Shown: positions 8,944 through 40,123 of the stretch, piece by piece
Layout of the letters: each line of letters starts with the position of its first letter
Position numbering within the stretch: the first letter of the stretch is position 1
NCBI GenBank assembly: GCA_016342755.1
Contig: JAEINS010000008.1
Location: forward strand, 1 to 64,000
Reading direction: 5' to 3'
Length of the DNA stretch: 64,000 bases
Source: Melioribacteraceae bacterium
Lineage (GTDB): Bacteria > Bacteroidota > Ignavibacteria > Ignavibacteriales > Melioribacteraceae
The notes under the pieces: model-generated
What the model was told of the DNA's origin: nothing
Databases searched by the model: none
The model's input: only the letters and a program-made list of their open reading frames with translations
Made by a program: the position numbers and the translations under genes

Positions 8944-10143
8944 ATGAAATCAATTTATTATTATTTATCGATACTTGGAATTATTGGACTCTTTTTGTCA
9001 ACTACTGCTTTTACTCTTGAAGGGTCTGAAGAAGAAGTTTCGAATAAAAAGATCATTAAATTTTCTCATTCGCTTCATGCTGATGCAGCTGAATGCGCTG
9101 ATTGTCATACGTCCGTTTTAGACAGTGATGAACTTTCACGTTCATTACTTCCTGAAAAAGAAGCATGCGCTGAGTGCCATGATGTTGAGGATGATGAAAA
9201 CTGTGAAATGTGTCATTACGAAGATAATTATGAGGCTCTTGTTTATGAGCCGTCAAATCTGATGTTCAGTCATAAATTTCATAGCAGCAGTTATGAAGAA
9301 ATGACTTGTGCAAAATGCCATGTTGAAGAATCAAAATCAGAAGAAGAAGAGATAACAATTGTTAATCCCGAAATGATTAGCTGTTCTAGCTGTCATAGCG
9401 ATTCACAAGTTGCTTCGATGAACTGTGAAACCTGCCATACAACTACTGATAATCTTACTCCGGAAAATCATTTAACAAATGATTTTAAATCAATGCATTT
9501 TAATTATGCGGAAAATGACGGTGAAAATTGTGTGATGTGTCACTCAAATGATTTCTGCGAAGCTTGTCACGTTTCAGGCAGATTTGATGGTACAGAATCG
9601 GCTGATGCCAGCTTTGGTACTTTATATTCGCCACATAAGTTTCTTAATAATGCTAAAGAGCAAAAGCTATCCAGAGTTCATGAAATTGGTTACAGATTTA
9701 CACACGGTATTGATGCAAAAGGTAAATCAATGGAATGTTCAACCTGCCATCAGGCAGAAACATTTTGTGTTGAGTGCCATAGCGATGGCGGCGGTGAAGT
9801 TGCAATGAATATTGTACCGATGTCTCACATGGTAAGTGATTTTACCACAAAAGGTGTTGGAACAGGCGGCGGCGAACATGCTGTTTTAGCAAGACGTGAT
9901 ATTGAAAATTGTATGGTATGCCACGATGTTCAGGGCGCAGATCCTAACTGTATTATGTGCCATACTGATACTGATGGAATTAAAGGTACAAATCCAAAAA
10001 CACATGATAGTTCTATTTCTGATATAAGTGCGGTATTCCATGATGATGACGGCGCAGTCTGTTATACATGTCATATAACTGCTTCTGCAAGTACAGGACA
10101 AGCTGGAAATGGATTCTGTGGATACTGTCATGGATCTAAATAA
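8944..10143 (+). CDS. Multihaem cytochrome c, 14 CXXCH sites
   Basis: A 399-residue exported protein with 14 CXXCH motifs, about one haem per 27 residues: CADCH, CAECH, CEMCH, CAKCH, CSSCH, CETCH, CVMCH, CEACH, CSTCH, CVECH, CMVCH, CIMCH, CYTCH and CGYCH. Many extra His residues (for example KFSHSLH, FSHKFHSS, HMVSDF) could serve as distal ligands. The N-terminus is a signal peptide without a lipobox cysteine. The gene starts nine bases after the barrel gene. Haem density fits a long-range electron wire, either in the periplasm or within the barrel. No catalytic family was recognised. Confidence 0.88.
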   Translation: MKSIYYYLSILGIIGLFLSTTAFTLEGSEEEVSNKKIIKFSHSLHADAAECADCHTSVLDSDELSRSLLPEKEACAECHDVEDDENCEMCHYEDNYEALVYEPSNLMFSHKFHSSSYEEMTCAKCHVEESKSEEEEITIVNPEMISCSSCHSDSQVASMNCETCHTTTDNLTPENHLTNDFKSMHFNYAENDGENCVMCHSNDFCEACHVSGRFDGTESADASFGTLYSPHKFLNNAKEQKLSRVHEIGYRFTHGIDAKGKSMECSTCHQAETFCVECHSDGGGEVAMNIVPMSHMVSDFTTKGVGTGGGEHAVLARRDIENCMVCHDVQGADPNCIMCHTDTDGIKGTNPKTHDSSISDISAVFHDDDGAVCYTCHITASASTGQAGNGFCGYCHGSK

Positions 10144-10168
10144 TAATTTGAAATATAGGTTTTTAATC

Positions 10169-11032
10169 ATGAAAAAATTATTTGCATATACATTATTTAT
10201 CGGATCATTTTTGTTGGTATTATCTTCATGCAGCGAATTGAATGATGATATAACAGTTGAACCGACAAATATGGTTAGTGTTCATAAAGACGGCTTTGGT
10301 AAAATGTCATCAGAAAATTTCCATGGCAAAACTCTTGCAAAAAATAATTGGAATATCAAAGAATGCAGAAGTTGTCATGGATTCGATTATAGCGGTGGAA
10401 CAGCGGAAAGTAGCTGTAATACTTGTCATACTAATGGTCCTGATGAATGTAATACTTGTCATGGTAATTTTGCAAATCCAAAATCTATTGCACCGCCAAC
10501 CGATTTAGCGGGAAATATTGAAAGTACATATCCCGGAGTTGGAGCACACGTTGCACATGTTATGAACGAAGAAAGTGTTGGGCAAAATGTTGGGTGTTTT
10601 GATTGTCATCCATCTACTTCTACAAATGAAGAATTTGTCTTTGCTCATATAAACGAACTTCCAGCGGAAGTTAATATTAGAGGATTGGCCGCAGTTCAGG
10701 CTAACCCGGCAAGTTATGATTATACAGGCAATACATGTTCAAATGTATATTGTCATGGTCATTTTGAATTTAGTAAGGCTTCATCCAAAAATCAATGGGT
10801 TTATACTGCTGATAAAATGGAAGGAAATAAGTTTAATCCAAAATGGACTAAAGTTGATGACACACAAGGTGCGTGCGGAACTTGTCATGATCTTCCTCCT
10901 AAAGGACATGCGGCAGTTAGCGGTGGTTTAGCAAGCTGTACAACTTGCCATTGGGATGTTGTTGATAACGAAGGAAAAATTAAAGATAACTTAAAACACA
11001 TTAATGGTGAAATTAATGTGTATGGTAATTAG
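10169..11032 (+). CDS. Lipoprotein multihaem cytochrome with CX4CH motif
   Basis: The ATG at 10169 gives a lipoprotein signal peptide with lipobox VLSSC; a longer reading starting at 10109 would destroy it. The 287-residue protein has six CXXCH sites (CRSCH, two CNTCH, CFDCH, CGTCH, CTTCH) and one CX4CH (CSNVYCH). The CSNVYCHG...W...CGTCHDLPPKGH pair matches the CX4CH/CXXCH domain described in Geobacter-type cytochromes. Lipid anchoring and the neighbouring barrel suggest the outer face of a porin-cytochrome conduit. The seventh haem at the CX4CH site is probable but unproved. Confidence 0.85.
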   Translation: MKKLFAYTLFIGSFLLVLSSCSELNDDITVEPTNMVSVHKDGFGKMSSENFHGKTLAKNNWNIKECRSCHGFDYSGGTAESSCNTCHTNGPDECNTCHGNFANPKSIAPPTDLAGNIESTYPGVGAHVAHVMNEESVGQNVGCFDCHPSTSTNEEFVFAHINELPAEVNIRGLAAVQANPASYDYTGNTCSNVYCHGHFEFSKASSKNQWVYTADKMEGNKFNPKWTKVDDTQGACGTCHDLPPKGHAAVSGGLASCTTCHWDVVDNEGKIKDNLKHINGEINVYGN

Positions 11033-11114
11033 TTCACAATTATAAAAAGATTCAATTTTTATATTAGATTTCATGTCATAAATAATTAAATTGTAACAAA
11101 ATATTTGGTTATTT

Positions 11115-12443
11115 ATGGCTTTTAATAAAAACTTTACAGACGATATATTAGACTCCCTCGGTGAGGGAGTTTTTACTGTTGATAAAAACTTCAAAATAAA
11201 ATTCTTTAACAAGGCTGCAGAAAAAATAACAGGTCATAAACGTGATGAAGTTATTGGTAAATTCTGTAAGCACATCTTTCGGTCGGATCTTTGTTTTCAT
11301 GATTGTCCAATCGCAAAAGTTCTTCAGACAAAAAAGAACATTTATGATTTTGAAACAAACATTCAATCCAAAGCTAAAGATACAATTCCAATTAAACTTA
11401 ATTCAGCAGTTCTTTATAATGAAAATGAAGAACCTGTTGGCGGTGTTATTTCTTTTAAGGATTTGTGTGACGTAGAATCATTAAAATTCTCATTAAAGAA
11501 AGAAGCCGATTATCACGGTATTATTGGAAGAAGCAAGCAGATACGTGAAATATTTGATCTTATTGATGAAATTTCAGATTCCGATGCTTCAGTATTAATA
11601 CATGGTCAGTCCGGTACCGGAAAAGAACTTGTTGCAAATGCTATTCAGAAAACATGTCATAGAAAAGATAAGCCGTTTATCAAAATAAATTGTTCTGTAT
11701 TTCCAGATAATCTATTGGCAAGTGAATTATTTGGGCATGTAAAAGGAGCCTTTACAGATGCAGTTAAAGACAGACCGGGCAGATTTGAAATTGCTGACGG
11801 CGGAACCATCTTTTTAGATGAAGTTGCCGAAATGCCTTTGCAGATGCAGGTAAAATTACTTCGTGTTTTGCAGGAAGGAAGTTTTGAGCGGGTTGGAGAA
11901 TCAGTTACCAGAAAGGCCGATGTTAGAGTTATAGCCGCGACTAATATCGATATCCAGGAAGCTCTTAAGAATGGAACATTTAGAGAAGATCTATATTACA
12001 GATTAAATGTAATACCAATTGAAGTACCGCCTTTATCGGCAAGAATGGATGATCTAATCCCATTAATAAATCACTTTTTAAGTAAGTACTCAATTCTATA
12101 TAATAAAGAAATTAAAGAAGTTGACGAAGAAACAATTGAAACACTTAGTTCCTATGACTGGCCTGGTAATATTCGCGAGCTGGAAAACGTAATTGAATAT
12201 GCTTTTGTTAGAGCTAATAAAGAAAAGTCTATTTCAAAAGATAAACTTCCGCTAATTTTAAGGAACAATAAAGCTAAATTTGTCCCGCAAACGAACTTTA
12301 TTAGATCCTCTGATTTTGATAAAAATGAGATGATTGAAATTTTGAAAAGAAATAAATGGAATAAAACAGCAGTAGCAAAAGAACTTGGAATTGGCAGAAC
12401 AACACTTTGGCGAAAATTAAAAACACTGGGTCTGGTTGAGTAA
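11115..12443 (+). CDS. PAS-containing sigma-54-dependent transcriptional activator
   Basis: A 442-residue enhancer-binding protein. Residues 7-115 form a PAS domain containing three close cysteines (C-x8-C-x3-C, in FCKHIFRSDLCFHDC). Residues 133-360 form the AAA+ domain with Walker A GQSGTGKE near 164. The sigma-54 contact loop near residue 211 reads GAFTDA, not the consensus GAFTGA. The C-terminus is a Fis-type helix-turn-helix (NKTAVAKELGIGRTTLWRKL). There is no receiver domain, so the PAS/cysteine unit probably senses redox or a ligand directly. It sits between two cytochrome groups and likely controls both through the nearby palindromes. Confidence 0.92.
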   Translation: MAFNKNFTDDILDSLGEGVFTVDKNFKIKFFNKAAEKITGHKRDEVIGKFCKHIFRSDLCFHDCPIAKVLQTKKNIYDFETNIQSKAKDTIPIKLNSAVLYNENEEPVGGVISFKDLCDVESLKFSLKKEADYHGIIGRSKQIREIFDLIDEISDSDASVLIHGQSGTGKELVANAIQKTCHRKDKPFIKINCSVFPDNLLASELFGHVKGAFTDAVKDRPGRFEIADGGTIFLDEVAEMPLQMQVKLLRVLQEGSFERVGESVTRKADVRVIAATNIDIQEALKNGTFREDLYYRLNVIPIEVPPLSARMDDLIPLINHFLSKYSILYNKEIKEVDEETIETLSSYDWPGNIRELENVIEYAFVRANKEKSISKDKLPLILRNNKAKFVPQTNFIRSSDFDKNEMIEILKRNKWNKTAVAKELGIGRTTLWRKLKTLGLVE

Positions 12444-12456
12444 TCTGTTTCAAAAC

Positions 12457-12470
12457 GTTTCAAGTGAAAC
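12457..12470 (+). promoter_or_regulatory. Candidate activator-binding palindrome
   Basis: GTTTCA-AG-TGAAAC, the same core as the palindrome at 6951. Another GTTTCA half lies at 12448. It stands about 130 bases upstream of a sigma-54-like element at 12597, a normal enhancer distance. Inferred target of the activator encoded immediately upstream. Confidence 0.6.
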
Positions 12471-12541
12471 ATACTGTTCATAAGGTGTAACTTATTTAAT
12501 AATAATGTATTAAGATCGAATTGTCTTTGTTAACGGCAAAG

Positions 12542-12558
12542 TGAAACGCACCGTTTCA
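12542..12558 (+). promoter_or_regulatory. Inverted repeat with GTTTCA/TGAAAC halves in outward order
   Basis: TGAAACG and CGTTTCA flank CAC. The half sites are those of the palindromes at 6951 and 12457 but in the opposite arrangement. It may be a second, differently spaced activator site or a hairpin. Confidence 0.4.
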
Positions 12559-12596
12559 TATCCCCTTAGTTTAACTTCTTTTTTCAAACCTTTTTT

Positions 12597-12611
12597 TGGC
12601 ATTTTTTTTGG
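12597..12611 (+). promoter_or_regulatory. Candidate sigma-54 promoter
   Basis: TTGGC with ten bases between the -24 GG (12598-12599) and a GG at the -12 position (consensus GC). It precedes the 11-haem-site cytochrome gene by 37 bases. The match is one base short of consensus at -12, as at 7018, and the upstream palindromes support it. Confidence 0.5.
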
Positions 12612-12647
12612 ATAACTACATCTTTTATAATAAGCAGGTATTGTGAA

Positions 12648-14084
12648 ATGTCAAAAAAAACAGTCTTATTTTATCTTTTATCTCTTACCATAATATTTTT
12701 TATTGGTTGCGAAGAAGAGAAAAAAGATCCTGAAACAATAGCAGAACTTACCTTAAAAATGTCTGTTAATTCTTGTGAAGGATGCCACACAAATTATGAG
12801 CACTTAAAAACAGTTCATACTCCTGATCCTCCATCAACCGAGGCGGCCGGCTGTGGCGGTGAAGCACCTCATTTTGAACCTTATGACAGAGTATTTTTGG
12901 GCGGTGATGGTTTTACTCAATTTAAATCTGGTATTCATGGAAAACTGGATTGTGTAGCCTGTCATAATGGTGTTGATGGTACAGACGATAAAGTATTAGC
13001 ACATTCAGATAATTTTATTACTCATCCTTCGTTAGTTCCTGAAGAAAAATGTGCAAGCTGCCATCCTGACATTGTTCAAAGAACGCAAAATAGTATCCAT
13101 AGAGAAGGTTCTGGCCAGAAAAGTATGGTATCGCAAAGATACGGTGCCGGTAATGGTTTAGACGCATTCGAAAGTTTACCTCATGATTTAAAAGAAGGTT
13201 ATGACGCTAACTGTGCAAAATGTCATGGTACTTGTGGGGATTGCCATATAGTTAGACCTAAAGCCGGTGGCGGTGGTTTAAAAAGCGGTCATGCTTTTAT
13301 TCGTACTCCTGATATGGTAAATACATGCGTTACTTGTCATGTTAGTCGTGGCGGACATGCTTACTTAGGTGTTGCATCCGGAACTGTTCCTGATGTTCAT
13401 TTAACAAAAGCCGGATATAATTGTTTAGACTGCCACTCGCAAAATGAAGTTCATGGCGACGGAAAATATGTTGATCAAAGATATAAAATGTCGCTTAAAC
13501 CAGAATGTGAAGATTGTCATTCAAATTTAGAAGAAGCAAATAATTATCATAAGACTCACTTAAGTACTTTTAATTGCCAGACATGTCACTCGCAAGATTA
13601 TAATAACTGCGGCAGTTGTCATATACCTGGACTACCTGAAGAAGGTGCCTTAGCAAAAGTTTCTGGCGGTGTAGGAGCAAGAATTGCTTCATATCAAGGT
13701 TTCAAGATTGGTATGAATCCGCTGAAAACAACTTCAAAGCCACAATATAAGATGGCATTGTTAAGAAGATCTTTATCAGCACCTGACAGTTGGAGCGGAT
13801 ATGGTGTGGAAAACTTATCTAACTTCGATGTAGCACCTACATTTAAATATACAACACCTCATAACATTATTAAATGGACAACAAGAACCGGCTTCAAAAA
13901 TGATGAAGGTAACTGGGAAGGATATGCAAAATGTTATGATGGCTGTCATATTATTGCTGAAGGTGATTCGCTAAGAAATAAAGGATTATATCTATTTAAT
14001 GAAGATCTTGAAGATTGGGAATTAAATGCCGATAAAGATATTGTTGTTGACGGAAAACTTCCTGCATGGTGGGGAGTAAACTAA
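12648..14084 (+). CDS. Lipoprotein multihaem cytochrome, ten CXXCH plus one CX3CH
   Basis: A 478-residue exported cytochrome with lipobox FIGC after residue 18. Ten CXXCH motifs are present (CEGCH, CVACH, CASCH, CAKCH, CGDCH, CVTCH, CLDCH, CEDCH, CQTCH, CGSCH) and a late CYDGCH, a CX3CH variant that could hold an eleventh haem. CAKCH and CGDCH are separated by only two residues (CAKCHGTCGDCH). The last 140 residues are haem-poor apart from the CX3CH and could be a binding or catalytic region. No close enzyme family was recognised. It is followed by a rhodanese lipoprotein gene after 46 bases. Confidence 0.85.
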   Translation: MSKKTVLFYLLSLTIIFFIGCEEEKKDPETIAELTLKMSVNSCEGCHTNYEHLKTVHTPDPPSTEAAGCGGEAPHFEPYDRVFLGGDGFTQFKSGIHGKLDCVACHNGVDGTDDKVLAHSDNFITHPSLVPEEKCASCHPDIVQRTQNSIHREGSGQKSMVSQRYGAGNGLDAFESLPHDLKEGYDANCAKCHGTCGDCHIVRPKAGGGGLKSGHAFIRTPDMVNTCVTCHVSRGGHAYLGVASGTVPDVHLTKAGYNCLDCHSQNEVHGDGKYVDQRYKMSLKPECEDCHSNLEEANNYHKTHLSTFNCQTCHSQDYNNCGSCHIPGLPEEGALAKVSGGVGARIASYQGFKIGMNPLKTTSKPQYKMALLRRSLSAPDSWSGYGVENLSNFDVAPTFKYTTPHNIIKWTTRTGFKNDEGNWEGYAKCYDGCHIIAEGDSLRNKGLYLFNEDLEDWELNADKDIVVDGKLPAWWGVN

Positions 14085-14130
14085 ATTGCACACTAATTAA
14101 CTAACAAATATATAATAATAGGAGTAACAA

Positions 14131-15114
14131 ATGAATTTAAGAAAGCTGTTTTATTTAATGTTGATAATTCCCATACTGTTTTTGAATACAGCATGTAGCG
14201 ATGATGATGGCGACGATCCGGTTGAAGTTAATGAAGCTGAGGTATTAGTTAAATATTTAGAAGCTGGTGATGATTTCTTAAATACTGCTGCACCTGCAAT
14301 GATTAAATCTTCAGATGTATTACCTAATGTTGATAATACAAACTGGACAATTATTGACATTAGAAGTGCTTCTGATTTTGCAAACGGACACATTAAAAAT
14401 GCGGTTAATAAAACTACTGGCGAATTATTAAGTTATTATGAAACTAATAATCTTTCAAGTAAAGAAAAAGTTGTAATAGCTTGTTATACAGGGCAAACTG
14501 CTGGTTGGGCAACTTCTCTATTAAGAATCATGGGGTATGCTAATGTTTATGATTTAAAATGGGGTATGAGTAGCTGGAATCCTGCAACAAAAGGCAGCTG
14601 GGTAAATACAGTTGCTGGTGGAAATGGAAAAGCCGGTCAGTTAGTAACTGCTGCAACAGCTAAAGCAGCTAAAGGTGATCTACCAAAATTAAAAACTGGT
14701 GAAACAGAAGCTGAAGATATTTTAAGAGCAAGAGTTGAAGCTGTATTTGCAGAAGGATTTGGCGCGGCAGCGGTTGGTAATGGAGATGTATTTGGCGCGT
14801 TAAGCAACTATTATATAGTTAACTATTGGTCTGAAGATCATTATAATATGATGCATATTCCCGGTGCTGTTCAATATACACCAAAGGCTGCACTAAAATT
14901 AGATGCAGATCTTAAAACTTTACCAACTGATAAACCTGTTGCAGTTTATTGCTATACCGGACAAACATCAGCACACGTTGCAGCAATATTAAAAGTTATT
15001 GGTTACGACGCAAAATCAATTAAATTTGGTGTTAACGCAATGAGTTATGATGCAATGCCAGGAACCAGATTTATTGAATCTACAGATGTTCATGATTACG
15101 CATTAGTAAAGTAA
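14131..15114 (+). CDS. Tandem-rhodanese lipoprotein (copy 1)
   Basis: A 327-residue lipoprotein (lipobox LNTAC) with two rhodanese-like domains, about residues 45-160 and 185-325. Both carry an active-site loop beginning with cysteine: CYTGQTAGWA and CYTGQTSAHVA. Rhodaneses carry sulfane sulfur, or in some cases bind selenium or other oxyanion products, on this cysteine. Lipid anchoring puts it at the envelope next to the cytochromes. The gene is closely similar to the one at 15867, so they are duplicates. In Geobacter, as I recall, some outer-membrane conduit clusters also contain rhodanese-like lipoproteins. Confidence 0.88.
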   Translation: MNLRKLFYLMLIIPILFLNTACSDDDGDDPVEVNEAEVLVKYLEAGDDFLNTAAPAMIKSSDVLPNVDNTNWTIIDIRSASDFANGHIKNAVNKTTGELLSYYETNNLSSKEKVVIACYTGQTAGWATSLLRIMGYANVYDLKWGMSSWNPATKGSWVNTVAGGNGKAGQLVTAATAKAAKGDLPKLKTGETEAEDILRARVEAVFAEGFGAAAVGNGDVFGALSNYYIVNYWSEDHYNMMHIPGAVQYTPKAALKLDADLKTLPTDKPVAVYCYTGQTSAHVAAILKVIGYDAKSIKFGVNAMSYDAMPGTRFIESTDVHDYALVK

Positions 15115-15125
15115 AAATATATTTT

Positions 15126-15154
15126 AAAGCTCCTTAAATAAGGAGCTTTTTTTT
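15126..15154 (+). terminator. Rho-independent terminator
   Basis: AAAGCTCCTT and AAGGAGCTTT pair around a four-base loop, then a T run. It closes the unit that ends with the first rhodanese gene. Confidence 0.9.
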
Positions 15155-15203
15155 GAAATTATACTTTACGTTTATAAAATTATTAAATTCAAAGGGCAGT
15201 AAA

Positions 15204-15674
15204 ATGAGCGAGATGCTTGGAAATCAATATTTTATGGCGAGAAAATTTTCTGAGGCCGAAAAGGAACTTGAAGAATGTTCTATTTCAAATCCTAAAAATA
15301 AGTTAATTAAAAAGAAATTAATAATTTGTTATGTTGAAACCGGGAAATTAATAAATGCCATCGAACTTTTTATTTCATTAATCAGAGAAGATATTGATAT
15401 TATTATTAATACTCATCCGATAGATGATGACTGTCCATGCCCTGAACTTATATATAATTATGAGAACTCACTGGATCTTAATAACCAGGGGGAAAAGGAT
15501 TTGCTGATTCTTGGTATTCTTTGGCTTTACTGCGATTTTAATAAATCGATGGAAAAATTTGAAGAGGCTGTTCAAAAAAAATCAAGTGATATTGAGGCTA
15601 AAACTATTTTAAGAATAATGAAAGCCAAAGAATTAGAGCTTAAACAGAAGGACAATAATCCATATATATCATAA
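15204..15674 (+). CDS. Small TPR-like protein
   Basis: A 156-residue helical protein. The ATG at 15204 has an AAAGGG ribosome site; an upstream TTG at 15153 lies in the terminator tail and is rejected. Residues 5-60 and 95-140 look like degenerate tetratricopeptide repeats (LGNQYFMARKFSEAEKELEE; CDFNKSMEKFEEAVQKK). A central DDDCPCPEL motif has two close cysteines. No signal peptide is present, so it should be cytoplasmic. It lies between the two rhodanese paralogues; a role in assembling or maturing cytochromes is possible but only suggested by position. Confidence 0.65.
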   Translation: MSEMLGNQYFMARKFSEAEKELEECSISNPKNKLIKKKLIICYVETGKLINAIELFISLIREDIDIIINTHPIDDDCPCPELIYNYENSLDLNNQGEKDLLILGILWLYCDFNKSMEKFEEAVQKKSSDIEAKTILRIMKAKELELKQKDNNPYIS

Positions 15675-15699
15675 CCTATTATGCTTAATTGGAGAAGAA

Positions 15700-15765
15700 A
15701 TGAGAAGTAAAATCTTCATTTTAATTTGTTCAACTTTAACTGCAATATATGTTAGACAACCTTAA
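15700..15765 (+). pseudogene. Short signal-peptide-like ORF, possible gene remnant
   Basis: A GGAGAAG site is followed by an ATG and 21 codons (MRSKIFILICSTLTAIYVRQP) ending in TAA. The start looks like the beginning of an exported protein, but nothing recognisable continues in any frame before the next gene. It may be the decayed 5' end of a lost gene or a leader peptide. Low certainty. Confidence 0.3.
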
Positions 15766-15866
15766 AACCCCAGTATATCTAATTAAACTAAGATTTGAAC
15801 TAATTACTAGTTTGATATATGGATAAATATTTTAAGAAAATAAATTTTACAATCATCAGGAGCAAA

Positions 15867-16847
15867 ATGAACTACAAAAAGCTTTTTTACTTAATGCTGA
15901 TTCTTCCAATTTTATTTTTAAATACTGCCTGCAGCGATGATTCTGTCACTCCGGATGATGTTGATGAAACGGAAGTTCTAATAAAATATTTAGAAGCAAA
16001 TGGAGATTTTTTAAATTCAACGGCTTGTCCTGCTATTATAAAAGCTGATGCTGTTAATACAAATATTTTGACAGGTGTTGATCAGGTTGTTATTGATATT
16101 AGAACAGCAGTGGATTATAATATTGGTCATATTAAAGGTGCGGTAAATGTTGTTGCCAACGATATATTAAGCTATTACGAAACAAATAATCTTTCGAATA
16201 AAACGGTTGTAGTTATAGCTTGTTATACTGGACAGGGTGCCGGATGGGCAACCAGTCTTTTAAGAATAATGGGATACAACAATGTTTTTGATTTGAAGTG
16301 GGGAATGTGCAGTTGGAATGCTTCAACAAATAATCATTGGGTTACAAATACTTCGAATGCAAAGGCTTCTCAATTTGTAAATACAGTTACAGAAAAACCA
16401 GCAGTTGGAGATTTACCAAAAATAGAAACTGGTAAAACAGAAGGTTCAGATATTTTACGCGCCAGAGTAGAAGCAATATTTGCAGAAGGTGTTGGTCTGG
16501 TTAAAATTGCCAACAGTGATGTTTTTGCCGTCCCGAATAAATATTTTGTTGCTAACTACTGGTCTGAAGATCATTATAAATTGATGCATATTCCCGGTGC
16601 TGTTCAATATTCTCCGGGAACTTCTTTAAAATCAGACAATGATCTTAAAACTTTGCCAACAGATAAAATAGTTGCTGTTTATTGTTATACTGGTCAGACT
16701 TCAGCACAGGTTGCCGCAGTTTTAAGAGTTATCGGTTATGATGCAAAATCTATTTTATACGGCGTTAATGGCATGAGCTATGATGCAATGCCAGGTACAA
16801 GATTTATCGAATTAAATGATGTTCACGATTATGAATTAGTAAAATAA
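15867..16847 (+). CDS. Tandem-rhodanese lipoprotein (copy 2)
   Basis: The ATG at 15867 follows CAGGAG and yields a lipoprotein signal peptide with lipobox LNTAC; upstream in-frame codons from 15819 are not supported. The 326-residue product has two rhodanese domains with active loops CYTGQGAGWA and CYTGQTSAQVA. It matches the protein encoded at 14131 along its whole length, with nearly the same signal peptide, so the pair arose by duplication. The differences include an extra cysteine in the N-terminal region (STACPAIIK) and CSWNAS in place of SSWNPA. An envelope sulfur-transfer or oxyanion-binding role is inferred. Confidence 0.87.
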   Translation: MNYKKLFYLMLILPILFLNTACSDDSVTPDDVDETEVLIKYLEANGDFLNSTACPAIIKADAVNTNILTGVDQVVIDIRTAVDYNIGHIKGAVNVVANDILSYYETNNLSNKTVVVIACYTGQGAGWATSLLRIMGYNNVFDLKWGMCSWNASTNNHWVTNTSNAKASQFVNTVTEKPAVGDLPKIETGKTEGSDILRARVEAIFAEGVGLVKIANSDVFAVPNKYFVANYWSEDHYKLMHIPGAVQYSPGTSLKSDNDLKTLPTDKIVAVYCYTGQTSAQVAAVLRVIGYDAKSILYGVNGMSYDAMPGTRFIELNDVHDYELVK

Positions 16848-16858
16848 TTATTAATTAT

Positions 16859-16883
16859 ACTCTCGTTATTCGGGAGTTTTTTT
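16859..16883 (+). terminator. Rho-independent terminator
   Basis: ACTCTCG pairs with CGGGAGT (one G-T pair) and is followed by T7. It separates the second rhodanese gene from the 24-haem cytochrome. Confidence 0.8.
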
Positions 16884-16918
16884 GTTAAATTTTAATTCAC
16901 TACTTAATAGGAGGAACA

Positions 16919-19900
16919 ATGAGAAAAATAGTTTTACTTTTTGCTTTGTTCATTTTTTTCCTCAACATAAGCGAAATAATCGCGCAGCCGCAACATTTTT
17001 CTACAAGTATCCACAAGACAAGAATTGGAAAAGCTACATTTTATGATAAGGAAAATGGCGGCTTTGAAACTCTTACAAATGTACCTATAGAAGATATGGG
17101 CTGTATTGATTGTCATGCTCCTACAAATGCTCTGGGAATTGCTTACGACGAATCTAATCCATGGACTGGTATGACATGTTTAGATTGTCATAATGGTTCA
17201 CCTGCAGAAGGAAATGTTTCGCAGGATCAATGTCTGGCTTGTCATGGCCGTCAGGCTGCGGAAATAGGACCAATGAATTTATCTGATGTACACAGAACAG
17301 CCGGCTTTAAATGCTGGGATTGTCACGGTACAGAAGATATGCATGGCGATGGCACCGTGTATGAATCGATGCTTGCTGATGGAGCCACTGATGCTGATTG
17401 TGCTGATTGTCATACAGCAGAATCAATTCCTGATCACACTGCTTATGATCCGCATGGTGGAAAGCTGCACTGTACAACCTGTCATGCTGAAACAGTTATT
17501 ACTTGCTATAACTGTCATCTTGAAAGTCAGGTTGAGCATCATGTAAAAAGAGCGAAACAAAAAGTGAAAGGTTTCATGATTTTAGTTAATCGTGAAAAAG
17601 ACGGAAAAGTTTATCCGGCAACATTCCAGTCATTATCACACGATGGAAACAGCTGGATTGCAATGGGACCTTATACATCCCACTCAATTAAATCGGAAGG
17701 AAGAACATGCGAAGATTGTCATAATTCTGAAAATGTTCAAAACCTTGTTAATACTGGCGAATTAAAATTTGCTACATGGAGTGACACTGATAGTTCTTTA
17801 TCAACGCTTACCGGCATTGTTCCATTACCCGAAGATTACGCAACCAATTTTAAAATGGATTTCATAAAGTATGATGGTAACACATCCGATCCGGCAGCTG
17901 CTTCTAAAAACTGGTCTAAGATTGGAAAAGATGTTGCTGATGGTTTCCAGTTAAAATATGCAACTGCATTAACTTCTAAGCAGATTAAAGCTTTAAACAC
18001 TAACATGGATATGGTTGCTAACTTTGAAACCAGTATTCATAAAACAAGAGCCGGAAAACCTTATTGGTATGATAAAGAAAATGGCGGTTTCGAAACTCTG
18101 ACCGGGGTTCCTATTGAAGAAATGGGTTGTGTAGAATGTCATTCAACCACCGATGCAAACGGAGTTGCTTATGACGAATCAAATCCATTTGTAGAAATGA
18201 GTTGTAAAGATTGTCATGCTAACAATGAATTTAGTGCCGAGAGTGTTTCTCAGGAACATTGTTTAACATGTCATGGTCGTCAGGCTGCAGAAATGGGACC
18301 AATGAATTTAACTGATGTTCATAGAACTGCCGGATTTGTTTGCTGGGATTGTCATACTTCTGAAGATATGCACGGTGACGGAACAGTTTATAGTTCTATG
18401 TTAGAAGATGGCGCAATTGATGCCGATTGTTCTACATGCCATACAGAGGAGTCATTGCCTGCCGGTCACTCAGACAGCGATCCGCACGATGGAAAACTTC
18501 ACTGTACAACTTGTCATGCTGAAACAGTTATTACTTGCTATAACTGTCATCTTGAAAGTCAGGTTGAGCATCATGTAAAACGTGCAAAGGCAAAAGTAAA
18601 AGGATTCATGATATTAGTTAATCGTGAAAAAGATAATAAAGTTTACCCTGCTACATTCCAGTCATTATCGCATGATGGAAACAGTTGGATAGCTATGGGT
18701 CCTTATACATCGCACTCAATTCAATCTGAAGGAAGAGTTTGTGCTGATTGTCACGGCAGCGAAAATGTAACGGCTTACAAAACTAATGGCGAGTTAAAAT
18801 TTGCTACATGGAATGAGGCTGATAGTTCACTTGCAACTTTAACTGGAATAATTCCATTACCGAAAGATTATGCAACCAAATTCAAAATGGATTTCATAAA
18901 ATATGATGGCAATACTTCTGATCCGGCTGGTCCTTCTAATAATTGGTCTAAAATTGGGAAAGATGTTGCTGATGGATTCCAGCTTGATTTTGCAACACCG
19001 TTAACTGATGGTCAGATTACTGCTTTGAGTATTGCAATGGACGAACAGAGTAAGAATTTTGCTACATCTCTTCATGGAACAAGAGCCGGCAAACCGACTT
19101 GGTATGATAAAGAGAATGGCGGCTTTGAAACTCTTACAAATGTACCGATTGAAGAAATGGGTTGTGTTGAATGCCATGCTCCAACCGATGCAAATGGGGA
19201 TATAGTGGTAAGTGCAGATTATGAACCTGGCTGCATAGATTGTCATGCTACCAAAACAGATTTCTCAGTTAATCAGGAAACATGTTTAAGTTGTCATGGT
19301 CGTCAATCAGCGGAAGTATCCATGGGACTCAGTAACGTTCACATGGCTGCGGATATGAAGTGCTGGGACTGCCATTCATCAACAGATATTCATGGTGATG
19401 GAAATGAGTATGAATCAATGCTTGCAGATGGTGCAATGACAGCAGATTGTGAATCTTGTCATATTGATGGCAATACGGATTTCCCAAATGCACCAGCGCC
19501 TAAGCATAATGGTACAATAACAATGCATCTCGATAAAGTACATTGTTTATCGTGCCATGCAGAAACTGTAATTACATGTTACAACTGTCATCTTGAAAGT
19601 CAAGTTGAACATCATGTTAAACGGGCAAAAACAAAACTAAAAGATTTTATGATATTAGTTAATCGTGAAAAAGATGGTAAAGTTTACCCGGCTTCATTCC
19701 AGTCAGCAACCTATCAGGGAAATGCCTGGATTGCGATGGGACCGTTTACACCTCATACTGTTTCAAATGAGCCTAGAGCATGTAACGAATGTCATCAAAA
19801 CTTTGGCGGCGATATAGAAGCTATAAAAGAATATAATGAAACCGGTGAAATCACTTTTGCAACATGGAGTGATACCGATAGTTCTTTAGTTTCTAAAAAA

Positions 19901-20410
19901 GGAATTATTCCTTTACCAACCGATTATGAACGCGCATGGAAAATGTCTTACATAAAATATGACGGAAACACTTCTGATCCTGCTGCGCCTTCTAATAATT
20001 GGTCAAGCATAGGAAAAGATAAAGCAGACGGATTCCAGTTATTGTATGCAACTGCATTAACTAAAGTACAGATGGCAAAACTTGGTTATGATACTACAAA
20101 AACTGTTACTTCTGTTGATGATGAGTTAGAGAAGGTTCTTCCAAATGATTTTGAATTGGAACAGAATTATCCTAATCCATTTAATCCTACTACAACTATT
20201 AGTTATCAGGTTCCTTCTAAATCTAGGATTACTATTAGGATTTATGATGCTTTAGGTGAACTTGTTGGAACTTTGGTTGATGAAGAAAAAGCTGCTGGCA
20301 GATATTCAGTTATATTTAATGCAGGAGATCTTGCGAGTGGAATTTATTTCTACAAATTAGAAACAACTACAGGATTTGAAGCTACTAAAAAGCTTATGCT
20401 GCTTAAATAG
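16919..20410 (+). CDS. 24-haem cytochrome of three octahaem repeats with T9SS sorting domain
   Basis: A 1163-residue exported protein (signal peptide ending IIAQ; AGGAGG ribosome site). Three homologous units of about 350 residues start near residues 25, 365 and 712. Each has eight CXXCH sites in the same order, giving 24. Each unit contains CLxCHGRQ, CWDCH, CHAETVITCYNCHLESQVEHH and a haem-free FMILVNREKD...VYPA block. Residues about 1080-1163 (NYPNPFNPTTTI to ATKKLMLLK) are a type A T9SS sorting domain. The protein is therefore predicted to cross the outer membrane by T9SS and sit at or leave the cell surface, as an extracellular electron wire or reductase. The catalytic role is unknown. 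Confidence 0.92.
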   Translation: MRKIVLLFALFIFFLNISEIIAQPQHFSTSIHKTRIGKATFYDKENGGFETLTNVPIEDMGCIDCHAPTNALGIAYDESNPWTGMTCLDCHNGSPAEGNVSQDQCLACHGRQAAEIGPMNLSDVHRTAGFKCWDCHGTEDMHGDGTVYESMLADGATDADCADCHTAESIPDHTAYDPHGGKLHCTTCHAETVITCYNCHLESQVEHHVKRAKQKVKGFMILVNREKDGKVYPATFQSLSHDGNSWIAMGPYTSHSIKSEGRTCEDCHNSENVQNLVNTGELKFATWSDTDSSLSTLTGIVPLPEDYATNFKMDFIKYDGNTSDPAAASKNWSKIGKDVADGFQLKYATALTSKQIKALNTNMDMVANFETSIHKTRAGKPYWYDKENGGFETLTGVPIEEMGCVECHSTTDANGVAYDESNPFVEMSCKDCHANNEFSAESVSQEHCLTCHGRQAAEMGPMNLTDVHRTAGFVCWDCHTSEDMHGDGTVYSSMLEDGAIDADCSTCHTEESLPAGHSDSDPHDGKLHCTTCHAETVITCYNCHLESQVEHHVKRAKAKVKGFMILVNREKDNKVYPATFQSLSHDGNSWIAMGPYTSHSIQSEGRVCADCHGSENVTAYKTNGELKFATWNEADSSLATLTGIIPLPKDYATKFKMDFIKYDGNTSDPAGPSNNWSKIGKDVADGFQLDFATPLTDGQITALSIAMDEQSKNFATSLHGTRAGKPTWYDKENGGFETLTNVPIEEMGCVECHAPTDANGDIVVSADYEPGCIDCHATKTDFSVNQETCLSCHGRQSAEVSMGLSNVHMAADMKCWDCHSSTDIHGDGNEYESMLADGAMTADCESCHIDGNTDFPNAPAPKHNGTITMHLDKVHCLSCHAETVITCYNCHLESQVEHHVKRAKTKLKDFMILVNREKDGKVYPASFQSATYQGNAWIAMGPFTPHTVSNEPRACNECHQNFGGDIEAIKEYNETGEITFATWSDTDSSLVSKKGIIPLPTDYERAWKMSYIKYDGNTSDPAAPSNNWSSIGKDKADGFQLLYATALTKVQMAKLGYDTTKTVTSVDDELEKVLPNDFELEQNYPNPFNPTTTISYQVPSKSRITIRIYDALGELVGTLVDEEKAAGRYSVIFNAGDLASGIYFYKLETTTGFEATKKLMLLK
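16994..20090 (+). repeat. Three tandem octahaem-encoding repeats inside one gene
   Basis: Approximate units are 16994-18014, 18015-19050 and 19051-20090. Units 1 and 2 are closest: 17481-17548 and 18513-18580 are identical over 68 bases, while the third unit has many synonymous changes there. This suggests an older first duplication and a later duplication or gene conversion between units 1 and 2. Confidence 0.88.
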
Positions 20411-36110: not shown

Positions 36111-37703
36111 ATGAGAACTAAAAAAAACATTTTTGTTACGATGATTCTGGTCATTTTTGTTCTTATTCTTGTAAATGTTTTTCATGACAAAGATAATTAC
36201 AATCTTAGATTGGAAAAACTTAGACAGGAATATGCAATTCCCAAAGAGTCATCAATCGACCATTCCAAACTTCCTGTACTTCAAAAAACTTTTAAAACTC
36301 CGCAAGAAGTAACTGAAACATGTATTGCCTGTCACACAGAAAGACACAAAGAAGTTATGGCTTCTTCTCACTGGAACTGGGAAAGAACCTCATACATTTC
36401 CGGTCGGGGTTTAACCTCAACAGGTAAAAAAAATGTACTTAACAATTTTTGTATTGGTGCCAGCAGTAACGAAGATGCTTGCGCTAAATGCCATATTGGT
36501 TATGGTGCCATAAACAATGATGAATACGATTTAACCAATGCTAGTAATGTTGATTGTATGGTTTGTCATGATAATAGCACAGAATACTTAAAGGGATCCG
36601 CAATGGCGGGGTATCCTGACAGAACTGTGAATTTAAATAAAGTTGCGCAAAGTGTTGGAAGACCTAAAAAAGATAATTGCGGTTCATGTCATTTTTACAG
36701 CGGCGGCGGAAACAATGTAAAACATGGCGATCTTGAAGAATCCATATTATCGGCAACAAAAGATGTTGATGTTCATATGGCGGCAAATGGAATGGACATG
36801 GTTTGTGTTGATTGCCATACTGCTGAAAATCATAAGCTAAAAGGAAAACTTTATTCAATTTCATCTACAAATAGTGATAGATCAAACTGTGAAGACTGCC
36901 ATACAAATCTGCCTCACTTTGATGAAATGTTAAATAGACACACTGCAAAAATTGCGTGTCAGACTTGTCATATCCCCGAATATGCAAAAGTTAATGCAAC
37001 TAAGATGGCCTGGAAATGGTCTGATGCCGGAAAATTAAAAGACGGTCAGCCATATCATGAAGAAGATGAAGATGGCAATCATACTTATCTTTCAATGAAG
37101 GGTTCATTTGACTGGCAGAAAAATGTAACGCCAGATTATGTATGGTTTAATGGAACGGCAGATCATTATGTATTAGGTGATACAATTAAATCAGTTCCTG
37201 TACAAATGAATACATTGTTTGGATCGGCAACTGACGGAAAATCGAAAATAATTCCGGTTAAAATTCATAAAGGTGATCAGATATATGATAAAAAATATAA
37301 TAATCTGATTCAGCCAAAAGTATTTGCTAAAGAAGTAGGTGACAGTGCTTACTGGAAAGACTTCGATTGGAATCTTGCGGCGGCTGCTGGTATGAAAAAA
37401 ATCGGGTTGCCTTATAGCGGTGAGTATGGATTTGTTGAAACCGAAATGTACTGGCCTGTAAATCACATGGTAAGTCCAAAAGAAAAATCACTTATGTGTG
37501 TCGACTGCCATGTAAGAGAAAATGGAAGACTTCAAAATTTAACCGGATTCTATTTACCGGGAAGAGATAAAAATGATATTCTAGATTCGCTGGGAACTAT
37601 AATGATAATACTGGCAATGGTTGGTGTACTAGCACACGGTTCTATTAGGTTTATTATGGCCATAAGAAAAGAAGAATACGAAACTGAAATAATTAATAAA
37701 TAA
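36111..37703 (+). CDS. Octahaem cytochrome c, tetrathionate-reductase family
   Basis: A 530-residue protein with eight CXXCH sites: CIACH, CAKCH, CMVCH, CGSCH, CVDCH, CEDCH, CQTCH and CVDCH. Haem spacing, with six clustered then a long haem-free stretch before the last, fits the octahaem tetrathionate reductase family, whose characterised member reduces tetrathionate, nitrite and hydroxylamine. An N-terminal signal anchor (residues 7-22) and a C-terminal transmembrane helix (about 495-515) tether it to the inner membrane. It heads an operon with a cytochrome b and a split YeeE transporter, pointing to sulfur substrates. The in vivo substrate is not proved. Confidence 0.88.
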   Translation: MRTKKNIFVTMILVIFVLILVNVFHDKDNYNLRLEKLRQEYAIPKESSIDHSKLPVLQKTFKTPQEVTETCIACHTERHKEVMASSHWNWERTSYISGRGLTSTGKKNVLNNFCIGASSNEDACAKCHIGYGAINNDEYDLTNASNVDCMVCHDNSTEYLKGSAMAGYPDRTVNLNKVAQSVGRPKKDNCGSCHFYSGGGNNVKHGDLEESILSATKDVDVHMAANGMDMVCVDCHTAENHKLKGKLYSISSTNSDRSNCEDCHTNLPHFDEMLNRHTAKIACQTCHIPEYAKVNATKMAWKWSDAGKLKDGQPYHEEDEDGNHTYLSMKGSFDWQKNVTPDYVWFNGTADHYVLGDTIKSVPVQMNTLFGSATDGKSKIIPVKIHKGDQIYDKKYNNLIQPKVFAKEVGDSAYWKDFDWNLAAAAGMKKIGLPYSGEYGFVETEMYWPVNHMVSPKEKSLMCVDCHVRENGRLQNLTGFYLPGRDKNDILDSLGTIMIILAMVGVLAHGSIRFIMAIRKEEYETEIINK

Positions 37704-37714
37704 GAGAAAATAGA

Positions 37715-38362
37715 ATGAAAGAAGTTTTAATATATACAAGGTTCGAAAGGTTTTGGCATTGGTCACAGGCTTCTCTGATTATGTTTTTGGCAGTTACCGG
37801 ATTTGAGGTTCATGGTTCGTTTGAGATGTTTGGTTTTGAAAAAGCAGTAATGTTTCACAGAGCTGCTTCTTATGCATTGCTTGGACTAATAGTTTTTGCA
37901 ATATTCTGGCATCTGACAACTGGTCAATGGCGACAGTATTTTCCAACAACAAAAAATCTTTTTGCACAAATTAGATATTATATGTTTGGTATGTTTAAAG
38001 GCGAAGATCATCCTACTCATAAAACTGAGATCAGTAAATTAAATCCGCTACAAAGATTAGTTTACATACAATTTAAGCTGATATTAATTCCTATTGTAGT
38101 AATTTCCGGTATCTTCTATCTGTTTAATAAATCGATTGATAAAAACAATATCATAGTTATAAGTGAATTTAAACTTGAAACAATTGCTGACTGGCACGTA
38201 CAGGGCGCGTTTTTATTGATCGTGTTTCTAATTATTCATGTATACATGACTACAACCGGTACAAGTATTACTTCTAATATTAAAGCTATGATTACCGGAC
38301 TTGAAGAACTTGAAAGTGAAAATAAAAATGATAAAAAAGGCGAGGCAAAAAATGAAGGCTAA
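37715..38362 (+). CDS. Di-haem cytochrome b, membrane subunit
   Basis: A 215-residue membrane protein with four hydrophobic helices and histidines placed for b-type haem: RFWHWSQASL, VMFHRAASYA, FWHLTTGQWR and LIIHVYMTTTG. It resembles the cytochrome b561/hydrogenase b-subunit fold, which passes electrons between the quinone pool and periplasmic haem proteins. It starts 11 bases after the octahaem gene, so it is the probable quinone-linked partner. Its tail is charged and overlaps the next gene by 11 bases. Confidence 0.88.
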   Translation: MKEVLIYTRFERFWHWSQASLIMFLAVTGFEVHGSFEMFGFEKAVMFHRAASYALLGLIVFAIFWHLTTGQWRQYFPTTKNLFAQIRYYMFGMFKGEDHPTHKTEISKLNPLQRLVYIQFKLILIPIVVISGIFYLFNKSIDKNNIIVISEFKLETIADWHVQGAFLLIVFLIIHVYMTTTGTSITSNIKAMITGLEELESENKNDKKGEAKNEG

Positions 38363-38873
38363 ACCATATATGAATCCTTACTTGGCCGGAGTTTTACTTG
38401 GCTTAGTATTATTGTTAACAGTCTATTTAACCGGAAGGGGACTTGGAGCGAGCGGTGCTATTAAAAGTATTGTTATAGAAACTGTTCAAACTGTAACTCC
38501 GGAACATGCTGAGAATACTGCGTACTACAGCAGTTTCAAGGCAACTCATCCTGAAGGCCCGTTACGTTCGTGGCTGGTGTTTGAAGTACTTGGTGTATTA
38601 ATCGGAGCTTTTCTTTCTGGTGTTATTTCGGATAGAGTTTCACTTAAATTGGAAAAAGGACCGCAGACTACAAAAAAAGTTAGAATTCTTGCTGCCATAG
38701 CCGGCGGAATGTTCTTTGGATTTGGATCTCAGCTTGCACGAGGCTGTACAAGCGGTGCTGCGTTAAGCGGTATGAGTGTTATGTCTTTTGGCGGTATTAT
38801 AACAATGATGGCAATTTTTGGATCAGCATATGCGGTTGCTTATTTTTTTAGAAAACTATGGATTCGAGGATAG
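38352..38873 (+). CDS. YeeE/YedE family protein, N-terminal half of a split transporter
   Basis: A 173-residue membrane protein; the ATG at 38352, after GGCGAGG, is preferred over upstream codons inside the cytochrome b gene. It carries the YeeE signature ARGCTSGAALSG in the third quarter and about four helices. Characterised YeeE proteins import thiosulfate using conserved cysteines. Here the usual single polypeptide is divided with the next gene. The two halves probably assemble. Confidence 0.88.
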   Translation: MKAKPYMNPYLAGVLLGLVLLLTVYLTGRGLGASGAIKSIVIETVQTVTPEHAENTAYYSSFKATHPEGPLRSWLVFEVLGVLIGAFLSGVISDRVSLKLEKGPQTTKKVRILAAIAGGMFFGFGSQLARGCTSGAALSGMSVMSFGGIITMMAIFGSAYAVAYFFRKLWIRG

Positions 38874-38876
38874 ATT

Positions 38877-40070
38877 ATGGGACCTTTAGTGCCTGATATT
38901 ATTGGGAATGAATTTGATTTAGTTATAGCTTTGATTTTGGGAATTGGCTTCGGCTTTATTCTTGAACAAGCTGGATTTTCAACTACAAAAAAATTAGTCG
39001 GACTTTTTTACGGTTACGACTTTACAGTATTAAGAGTGTTTTTTACCGCTGGTGTAACTGCCATGATAGGTATATTAGTTCTTGGTCATTTTAACCTGCT
39101 CGATCTGAGTTTGTTATTTATAAATCCAACATTTTTATATGCCGCGTTAGTTGGCGGAGCAATAATGGGAGTAGGATTTATACTTGGCGGATTTTGTCCC
39201 GGGACAAGTGTTTGCGCGGCGGCAGTAGGTAAAATAGACGCAATGGCGTTTTTGCTGGGATCGTTCCTTGGAATAGTTCTATTTATTGAAGGATTTTCAA
39301 TTTGGGGAGATCTTTTTATAATGGAAAGTATGGGTGATTTAAAGATGAATGAAGTTTTTGGTTTATCGCCTGAACTTTTTGCAGTAATTATTACATTGGT
39401 TGCAATTGGCGCTTTTGTAATGGTAACGAGAATAGAAGATAAAGTAAATGGACGAAAGTCATCTTATTCAACAAAAAAGATGGCAACAACATTTTCTTAT
39501 GCAATTGCACCGGTTCTAATTATTGGTATTCTTTCTTTTACATCAAATCATACGGAATCTGTGAAGAGCGATGTTGCTGAAAAATTATCAAATAATACTA
39601 AGATAAATGAAATTGCTGCGGATGAATTTTCTTCAAAACTAATTGAAAGTTATTATGATTTTAATGTAATTGATATTCGTTCAAAAGAGGAATATAAAAA
39701 ATCGCACTTACCATTGGCTATAAATATACCAGTTGATAGTCTGATGAATAAAGAGTGGGGAAATTATTTTACTCAGAATCATAAAGCAAATGTTTTTTAT
39801 GGTGATGATTTTAATAATGTTAAAAGAGCATATTTTACTGCCGAAAACATTGGGAAAGCAGAAAACTACGGTTTAATAGAATCCCACAATGAATTTAAGG
39901 CTTTATATTACAATCTTGAACAGCCTGATAAAGATAAAAGAAAAGAACTTGATGTTTATAAGTTTCGTAAAAAAATGGGTGCTGATTTAACTAAGCTTGA
40001 AGATGCAATGATGAAATTTTCGCAGCCGGTTAAGAAAAAGGCCACAAAAGCAAAAGGCGGCTGTGCCTAA
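38877..40070 (+). CDS. YeeE/YedE C-terminal half fused to a rhodanese-like domain
   Basis: A 397-residue protein starting three bases after the first YeeE half. Residues 1-180 are the second YeeE half, with the conserved GGFCPGTSVCAAAVG cysteines. After another helix (about 205-222), residues 245-345 form a rhodanese-like domain (FNVIDIRSKEEYKKSHLPLAINIPVDSL). The loop that should hold the catalytic cysteine reads NVFYGDDFNNVKRA and has none. The C-terminus ends GGCA, so a mobile cysteine may replace it. Sulfur uptake or sulfur hand-over to the octahaem cytochrome is a reasonable inference. Confidence 0.88.
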   Translation: MGPLVPDIIGNEFDLVIALILGIGFGFILEQAGFSTTKKLVGLFYGYDFTVLRVFFTAGVTAMIGILVLGHFNLLDLSLLFINPTFLYAALVGGAIMGVGFILGGFCPGTSVCAAAVGKIDAMAFLLGSFLGIVLFIEGFSIWGDLFIMESMGDLKMNEVFGLSPELFAVIITLVAIGAFVMVTRIEDKVNGRKSSYSTKKMATTFSYAIAPVLIIGILSFTSNHTESVKSDVAEKLSNNTKINEIAADEFSSKLIESYYDFNVIDIRSKEEYKKSHLPLAINIPVDSLMNKEWGNYFTQNHKANVFYGDDFNNVKRAYFTAENIGKAENYGLIESHNEFKALYYNLEQPDKDKRKELDVYKFRKKMGADLTKLEDAMMKFSQPVKKKATKAKGGCA

Positions 40071-40087
40071 ATAAATAGTTTTATGTG

Positions 40088-40123
40088 AAAGTCCGTTCTC
40101 TATTTGAGGCGGACTTTTTTTTT
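40088..40123 (+). terminator. Rho-independent terminator of the octahaem operon
   Basis: AAAGTCCG pairs with CGGACTTT, followed by T9. It ends the four-gene operon. Confidence 0.9.

Follow-up and report, generated by a model that had tools for sequence, protein, structure and literature searches.

Octahaem cytochromes of the octahaem tetrathionate reductase (OTR) family, split transporters of the YeeE/YedE family and the idea of a sulfur-carrying protein arm are all already known. Oxidised sulfur can be handled on cysteine: TsdA reduces tetrathionate via a cysteine S-thiosulfonate (PMC5146829), and the carriers DsrE3A and TusA acquire thiosulfate groups from tetrathionate in the form of cysteine adducts (PMC4175335). 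Split YeeE pairs are known as PmpA/PmpB and have one conserved cysteine each, where TsuA has three; those of PmpB and PmpA match Cys91 and Cys293 of TsuA, respectively (PMC11582611). The same source proposes sulfur transfer from SoxYZ to SoxT, and presents the route of periplasmic sulfur to YeeE-type importers as open even in the Sox systems that have been studied. In lucinid symbionts, soxY-S3 and soxZ adjoin otr (PMC11237559). Here we describe a four-gene unit at 36111-40070 of a 64,000-nucleotide stretch of DNA from Melioribacteraceae bacterium (assembly GCA_016342755.1, contig JAEINS010000008.1, positions 1 to 64,000, forward strand; hereafter the window), which encodes an octahaem cytochrome, a cytochrome b and both halves of a YeeE transporter, one of them ending in a cysteine-tipped arm. 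The window is part of contig C52 of a 4.73-Mb genome.

Our preferred explanation, to which we give a probability of about one in two, is that the four genes encode a membrane complex in which quinol-fed reduction of an oxidised sulfur compound would be coupled to sulfur uptake via a covalent carrier. The features concerned are as follows.

36111-37703, + strand: octahaem c-type cytochrome, OTR family (530 aa, eight CxxCH, TIGR04315, hydrophobic anchor at both ends)
37715-38362, + strand: cytochrome b561 of the quinol dehydrogenase type (PF01292, 88.6 bits)
38352-38873, + strand: yeeA, C-terminal half of a YeeE/YedE transporter, PmpA-like (PF04143 positions 177-308)
38877-40070, + strand: yeeB-rhod, N-terminal half of YeeE, PmpB-like, fused to a probably periplasmic rhodanese-like domain and a C-terminal GGC arm (PF04143 positions 3-190 and PF00581, alignments, AlphaFold2 (AF2) model)
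39195-39197, + strand: Cys107 of yeeB, in the membrane half (GGFCPGT; invariant in 28/28 aligned rows)
39594-39911, + strand: rhodanese-like domain, residues 240-345, catalytic Cys replaced by Gly (model confidence score (pLDDT), Foldseek, catalytic column)
40008-40067, + strand: predicted flexible, basic C-terminal arm, residues 378-397, ending GGC-A (GGC invariant in 28/28; residues 387-397 at pLDDT <50)
40087-40118, + strand: probable intrinsic terminator at the end of the four-gene unit (RNA folding)

An earlier note on this DNA, made from the sequence alone, had described four tightly spaced genes here, for a membrane-anchored octahaem of the tetrathionate reductase family, a cytochrome b and a divided YeeE transporter. 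The open reading frames (ORFs), the families and the spacing (in order, an 11-nt gap, an 11-nt overlap and a 3-nt gap) all bear this out, as do the anchor and the two transporter halves discussed below. The arrangement also recurs in other genomes. In a phylum sample of 296 genomes, 41 had an octahaem over the cut-off (45 matches) and surroundings were read for 40; outside this count of 40 stand five over-cut-off matches, together with L075 and L077 (L numbers are our locus handles), where the octahaem is weak or broken. All four genes are present in one order and on one strand in 25 of the 40 octahaem loci, among them L052 with yeeB in two ORFs, so the arrangement is not a chance one. One further locus has octahaem-yeeA-yeeB without cytochrome b. 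The fused form of yeeB adjoins an octahaem in 29/30 cases. When named genomes were scanned with yeeB of the window, 13 loci came up; four of them have all four genes, one of these being in Zixibacteriota. The named relatives of the unit comprise Bacteroidota and one Zixibacteriota genome. Of 80 genomes sampled from L078's phylum, L078's own was the only one with the module. Among plasmids, a search for the octahaem returned five records, of which four are from Paracoccus and one, which carries no annotation, is from Photobacterium; the yeeB protein gave two weak matches. One Paracoccus plasmid neighbourhood (H1) contains SUF and cysteine desulfurase genes, and a split YeeE is not among its annotated genes.

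The rhodanese-like domain has lost the catalytic cysteine and has an invariant cysteine at its C-terminus instead, on a tail predicted to be disordered. The fold is that of a rhodanese (PF00581 match; Foldseek best 3o3w_C, E 2.1e-4, TMt 0.73), yet the catalytic column has Cys in 0/30 fused and 2/36 separate domains, and Gly in the window protein. The 36 separate cases are those passing a 200-bit filter, which excludes L150-L152 (YeeE matches of 82 bits or less). In the AF2 model, built from 28 sequences, the domain has a pLDDT of about 85-95 and is followed by a helix (355-377) and the unordered tail. The soluble half is poorly conserved: across the 28-sequence alignment (27-53% identity to the window protein) its sole invariant positions are Gly326 and the Gly-Gly-Cys of the terminus. 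A cysteine is the last or next-to-last residue in 30/30 fused and 34/36 separate rhodanese-like proteins; of the two misses, L088 is cut by a contig end and L139 has a broken frame, with the next frame ending KKKKREGC. The background is low, with Cys in the last two residues of 13/884 other ORFs (>=150 aa) from the same loci. In the window protein, Cys396 is the sole cysteine after the membrane half. We infer that the domain is a periplasmic scaffold and not an enzyme.

Its location follows from the N-termini. In 22 separate versions, a hand-picked part of the 36, there is one N-terminal hydrophobic segment preceded by 1-9 Lys/Arg and 0-2 acidic residues, a charge pattern that points to an N-in, C-out orientation. 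A related tailed domain (L087 8411) starts with what looks by eye like a lipoprotein-type signal, and the tail is also found on four double-rhodanese proteins that have working-type CxxG loops and lipoprotein-type starts (L084 twice, L087, L089); ten other proteins with working-type CxxG loops have no tail. The N-terminal segments and lipoprotein-type starts therefore place domain and tail outside the cytoplasm, and judged from these sequence features both are most likely periplasmic.

The tails were also compared within and between loci, in 15 hand-picked proteins from six loci that each encode two or more GGC-tailed rhodaneses. Over the nine residues preceding GGC, identity is 0.62 within a locus vs 0.37 between loci (permutation p 0.0005); for the rhodanese domains of these proteins it is 0.29 vs 0.33. 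L087 has the same nine tail residues on three proteins of different make-up; L084 is the exception, with tails unlike within the locus. Since tails are alike within a locus though the domains are unlike, something appears to read the tail. As an observation in its own right, L083, L086, L087, L089 and L125 all have near-identical cysteine tails on unlike rhodanese proteins, for which a shared reader or conversion are both possible. Recognition by a common partner is also what would be expected if the terminal cysteine were an anchor or docking point (through a disulfide, a lipid link or a peptide recognised by that partner) and not a sulfur carrier, and the basic character of the tail fits this too. 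However, the proteins are already anchored by transmembrane helices or lipoprotein signals, the partners seen belong to sulfur chemistry, and the GG before the terminal Cys resembles the SoxY arm. We regard a pure anchor or docking role as unlikely, and favour a covalent sulfur carrier.

The transporter to which this arm is attached is divided, as in PmpAB: adjacent genes match the two halves of PF04143. The cysteine in the RGC motif of yeeA aligns with Cys293 of S. thermophila TsuA (structure 8j4c) and is retained in 65/65 yeeA. In 63/65 cases yeeA lies immediately upstream of yeeB, and the two exceptions stem from a contig that starts there and from an ORF that was called too long. Cys107 of yeeB is invariant in its alignment (28/28) and may correspond to Cys91 of TsuA; a search with the yeeB protein listed rhodaneses and not TsuA. 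In the source genome, PF04143 matches occur at the yeeA/yeeB pair only and one PF00384 (molybdenum oxidoreductase) match reaches the cut-off, which leaves the octahaem as the only visible partner of the transporter there.

Elsewhere the partner can be a different one. By gene content, the transporter and its arm are a reusable module of their own, which would also serve PsrABC. Of 30 further YeeE loci from the phylum search, 21 read psrA-psrB-psrC-yeeA-yeeB-rhodanese, one of which (L126) is fused. Loci L083-L089, from named genomes, resemble this type as far as their contigs extend, and in L087 an octahaem and cytochrome b lie directly upstream of the Psr-type set. PsrA of L085 matches the Thermus thiosulfate reductase 2vpw (E 8e-188) and its PsrC is NrfD in Pfam. 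In a maximum-likelihood tree of the yeeB membrane half (L088 and L090 left out), 29/30 octahaem-linked rows form one clade (99/95) among Psr-linked rows, which makes the four-gene set one lineage of a wider module; the Psr labels of L083-L089 were assigned from gene sizes and N-termini, L085 alone being checked by Pfam. The thirtieth octahaem-linked yeeB, that of L071, is on a long branch elsewhere in the tree and is a second, separate link to an octahaem. The Psr-linked fusion L126 is distant from the octahaem-linked fusions, and fusion therefore arose more than once. Without an outgroup in the tree, the order in which partners were recruited is a matter of interpretation and not a result.

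The octahaem itself scores 580 bits on TIGR04315 (cut-off 375). Its closest solved structure, and the only solved relative found, is PDB 1sp3 (E 2e-128), the Shewanella OTR. All eight haem sites are CxxCH, and the NrfA-type CxxCK site is absent from the protein. Hydrophobic segments lie at residues 7-25 and 490-508; a C-terminal anchor is found in 35/35 octahaems beside a cytochrome b gene (peak Kyte-Doolittle 1.75-2.58) and in 0/10 others (0.44 or less). Alignment to 1sp3 shows that the Asn61, Cys64 and Lys153 positions, which we take to be active-site positions, are retained; Cys64 and Lys153 (C114 and K204 in the window protein) are kept in 29/29 four-gene octahaems. The nearest NCBIfam to the cytochrome b is a thiosulfate reductase cytochrome b model, at 102 bits and so below its cut-off of 204. 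Family and anchor suggest that electrons from menaquinol reach the periplasmic octahaem through cytochrome b561, and the octahaem probably reduces sulfur compounds. The source genome has a second octahaem (L007 7536-8930, contig C37), with no membrane anchor and no adjoining cytochrome b or transporter. At one locus only, L087 (736-2283), we noticed an octahaem-linked cytochrome b with C-terminal PAS domains, a possible redox sensor.

The octahaem could also be a nitrite or hydroxylamine reductase or detoxifier, next to a transporter for ordinary sulfur uptake in a neighbourhood that is inherited and not functional. Nitrite and hydroxylamine are in vitro substrates of Shewanella OTR (Atkinson 2007, cited in PMC4911364), no NrfA over the cut-off was found in the source genome, and 14/40 octahaem loci have no transporter. 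Against mere inheritance are the fixed order of the four genes in the 25 loci, across many families, the near-constant pairing of fused yeeB with an octahaem, and the separate link in L071; the other partner of the module, moreover, is a sulfur enzyme, PsrA. We think nitrite or hydroxylamine reduction improbable as the function of the unit, and return to sulfur respiration coupled to uptake.

As we picture the complex, cytochrome b561 would oxidise menaquinol and pass electrons to the periplasmic octahaem, which would cleave tetrathionate, a protein-bound thiosulfonate or a similar substrate. The GGC arm, acting like the swinging arm of SoxY, may bind the thiosulfate or sulfane group covalently, in the form of a Cys adduct, and present it at the mouth of the yeeA-yeeB channel, where the two conserved cysteines would pass the group inward. 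That the arm stands in for the third cysteine of TsuA is a guess. More generally, a PmpAB/SoxT-type importer with a tethered periplasmic arm could serve interchangeable quinol-fed sulfur reductases. The adduct, the substrate and the direction of transport are all proposals.

Several points weigh against this reading. The roles proposed for the members of the set come from sequence and structure prediction, and nothing was drawn from the membrane half of the AF2 model of yeeB, where confidence is low. The SoxY fold differs from the rhodanese-like fold that bears the arm here, and the SoxY encoded beside otr in the symbionts is reported to have a mutated arm (PMC11237559). Two separate domains, L140 and L141, still have Cys at the catalytic column. 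At the position of Asp150, which is near the active haem of Shewanella OTR and is a feature of that enzyme and not of the family, 29/29 four-gene octahaems have Asn, and 5/6 of those with cytochrome b only have Asp; the substrate may therefore differ. Six of the 40 octahaem loci have cytochrome b only, with no transporter module, and in eight the octahaem stands alone. Seven module loci, two of them near a contig end, have neither reductase in view. Four of these seven (L131, L132, L134, L136) read, by eye, sulfurtransferase, yeeA, yeeB and a dead rhodanese ending RMGC, and in L132 and L136 a cysteine-desulfurase-like gene comes next; with such neighbours, uptake need not be respiratory. The sampling, finally, covers one phylum and 80 genomes of L078's phylum.

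These counts also modify what the earlier note had proposed. Its single device for sulfur-compound respiration stands in so far as the four genes keep together in most octahaem loci and the transporter unit follows PsrABC elsewhere, and gives way in that the transporter half is separable; being found mostly with PsrABC or with no reductase, the transporter goes part of the way towards the finding that the note had said would refute it, namely genes separable in most genomes. The sulfur-binding tail it had described is not a working rhodanese site; the cysteine lies in the last residues of the protein.

Another possibility is that the unit supplies sulfur for biosynthesis (of the molybdenum cofactor, Fe-S clusters or cysteine) and not for respiration. 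In the window it is flanked by a molybdenum-cofactor run, with moaA 32175 (named by eye), moaC-moaB 33253, moeA 34197 and MOSC 35402 upstream and mobA 40196 downstream, and there are the two desulfurase-like neighbours mentioned above. One Psr-linked copy, L135, is likewise followed by moaA-moaCB-moeA-MOSC-mobA, the set that flanks the window unit. However, a full moa set is near only 1/83 other loci examined and mobA near 8/83, for which reason we dropped the molybdenum-cofactor genes as a functional clue, and the source genome has the single PF00384 match over cut-off. A probable terminator also sets mobA outside the four-gene unit: the hairpin at 40087-40118, with its T-run, folds at -17 kcal/mol (z -4.97) and is equalled in 0/200 shuffles. 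The hairpin was detected by folding and missed by a pattern-based terminator scan, probably through the loop limit of the scan; promoter matches are at chance level (24 vs 21.2 expected). A biosynthetic role for the unit seems to us quite improbable beside a respiratory one. Least probable of all is that the unit is a sensor that passes a sulfur signal to a regulator instead of bulk sulfur, as SoxT1B of Hyphomicrobium is described to do (PMC11582611), since, the single PAS fusion of L087 aside, a regulator gene is absent from the conserved set and closeness to a catalytic reductase suggests bulk flux.

A second multihaem and rhodanese cluster is found in the window at 8944-20410. It contains multihaem genes at 8944 and 10109 and a sigma-54 regulator, a ten-CxxCH cytochrome distantly similar to the octahaem (12648-14084), two double-rhodanese, lipoprotein-like genes with CYTGQ loops (14131 and 15819) and, at 16919, the gene for a multihaem protein of 1163 aa that has a secretion tail. 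The pair of decahaem and double-rhodanese genes was found again in L128.

What appears to be new is a terminal-cysteine-armed dead rhodanese built into a transporter and common to PsrABC and OTR; no description of a GGC-tailed dead rhodanese or of the four-gene unit was found in the open-licence literature searched. We suggest tentatively, rating it at somewhat less than an even chance, that this is a new class of periplasmic sulfur carrier, a dead rhodanese scaffold with a SoxY-like arm that ends in cysteine. The carrier would be either tethered to its split YeeE importer or encoded next to it, and different lineages would have combined it with unrelated quinol-fed sulfur reductases (PsrABC and OTR). 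If so, it would be a general means of passing sulfur on from respiratory reduction to import with no release in between. It would also help to assign a role to the octahaems, a family with an unsettled physiological substrate. A carrier fused to a transporter and common to two unrelated reductases would offer a compact and genetically tractable test, on one cysteine at the end of a protein. For finding more such systems, the sequence mark would be a dead rhodanese that ends in GC or GGC and comes after a split YeeE.

Compared with known systems, the window octahaem shares with Shewanella oneidensis OTR (1SP3) the family, the eight CxxCH and the Asn61, Cys64 and Lys153 positions, and differs from it in two membrane anchors, a cytochrome b partner, Asn at the Asp150 position and the transporter operon. 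Thermosulfurimonas dismutans has an octahaem and an adjacent membrane cytochrome b (TDIS_1882/1883), and the passage describing this pair mentions neither a split YeeE nor an armed rhodanese (PMC4911364). In PsrABC of Desulfurivibrio dismutans, a periplasmic reductase, external sulfurtransferases and YeeE transporters are likewise proposed to act in concert; the rhodaneses are described as sulfurtransferases, and a cysteine tail is not part of the account given in that passage (PMC12142623). PmpA/PmpB are also two half transporters and, like SoxT, are linked to sulfur import; as described they have about 130 residues and four helices each, and so no rhodanese domain or GGC arm, and SoxT works with Sox carriers and not beside a quinol-fed reductase (PMC11582611). 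Annotated neighbours of the window unit do not include SoxZ. The arms of SoxY and yeeB-rhod are alike in being flexible, C-terminal and apparently periplasmic, and in being proposed to pass sulfur to a YeeE-like importer; both end in GGC. Unlike SoxY, yeeB-rhod has a rhodanese-like fold and is tethered to its own transporter.

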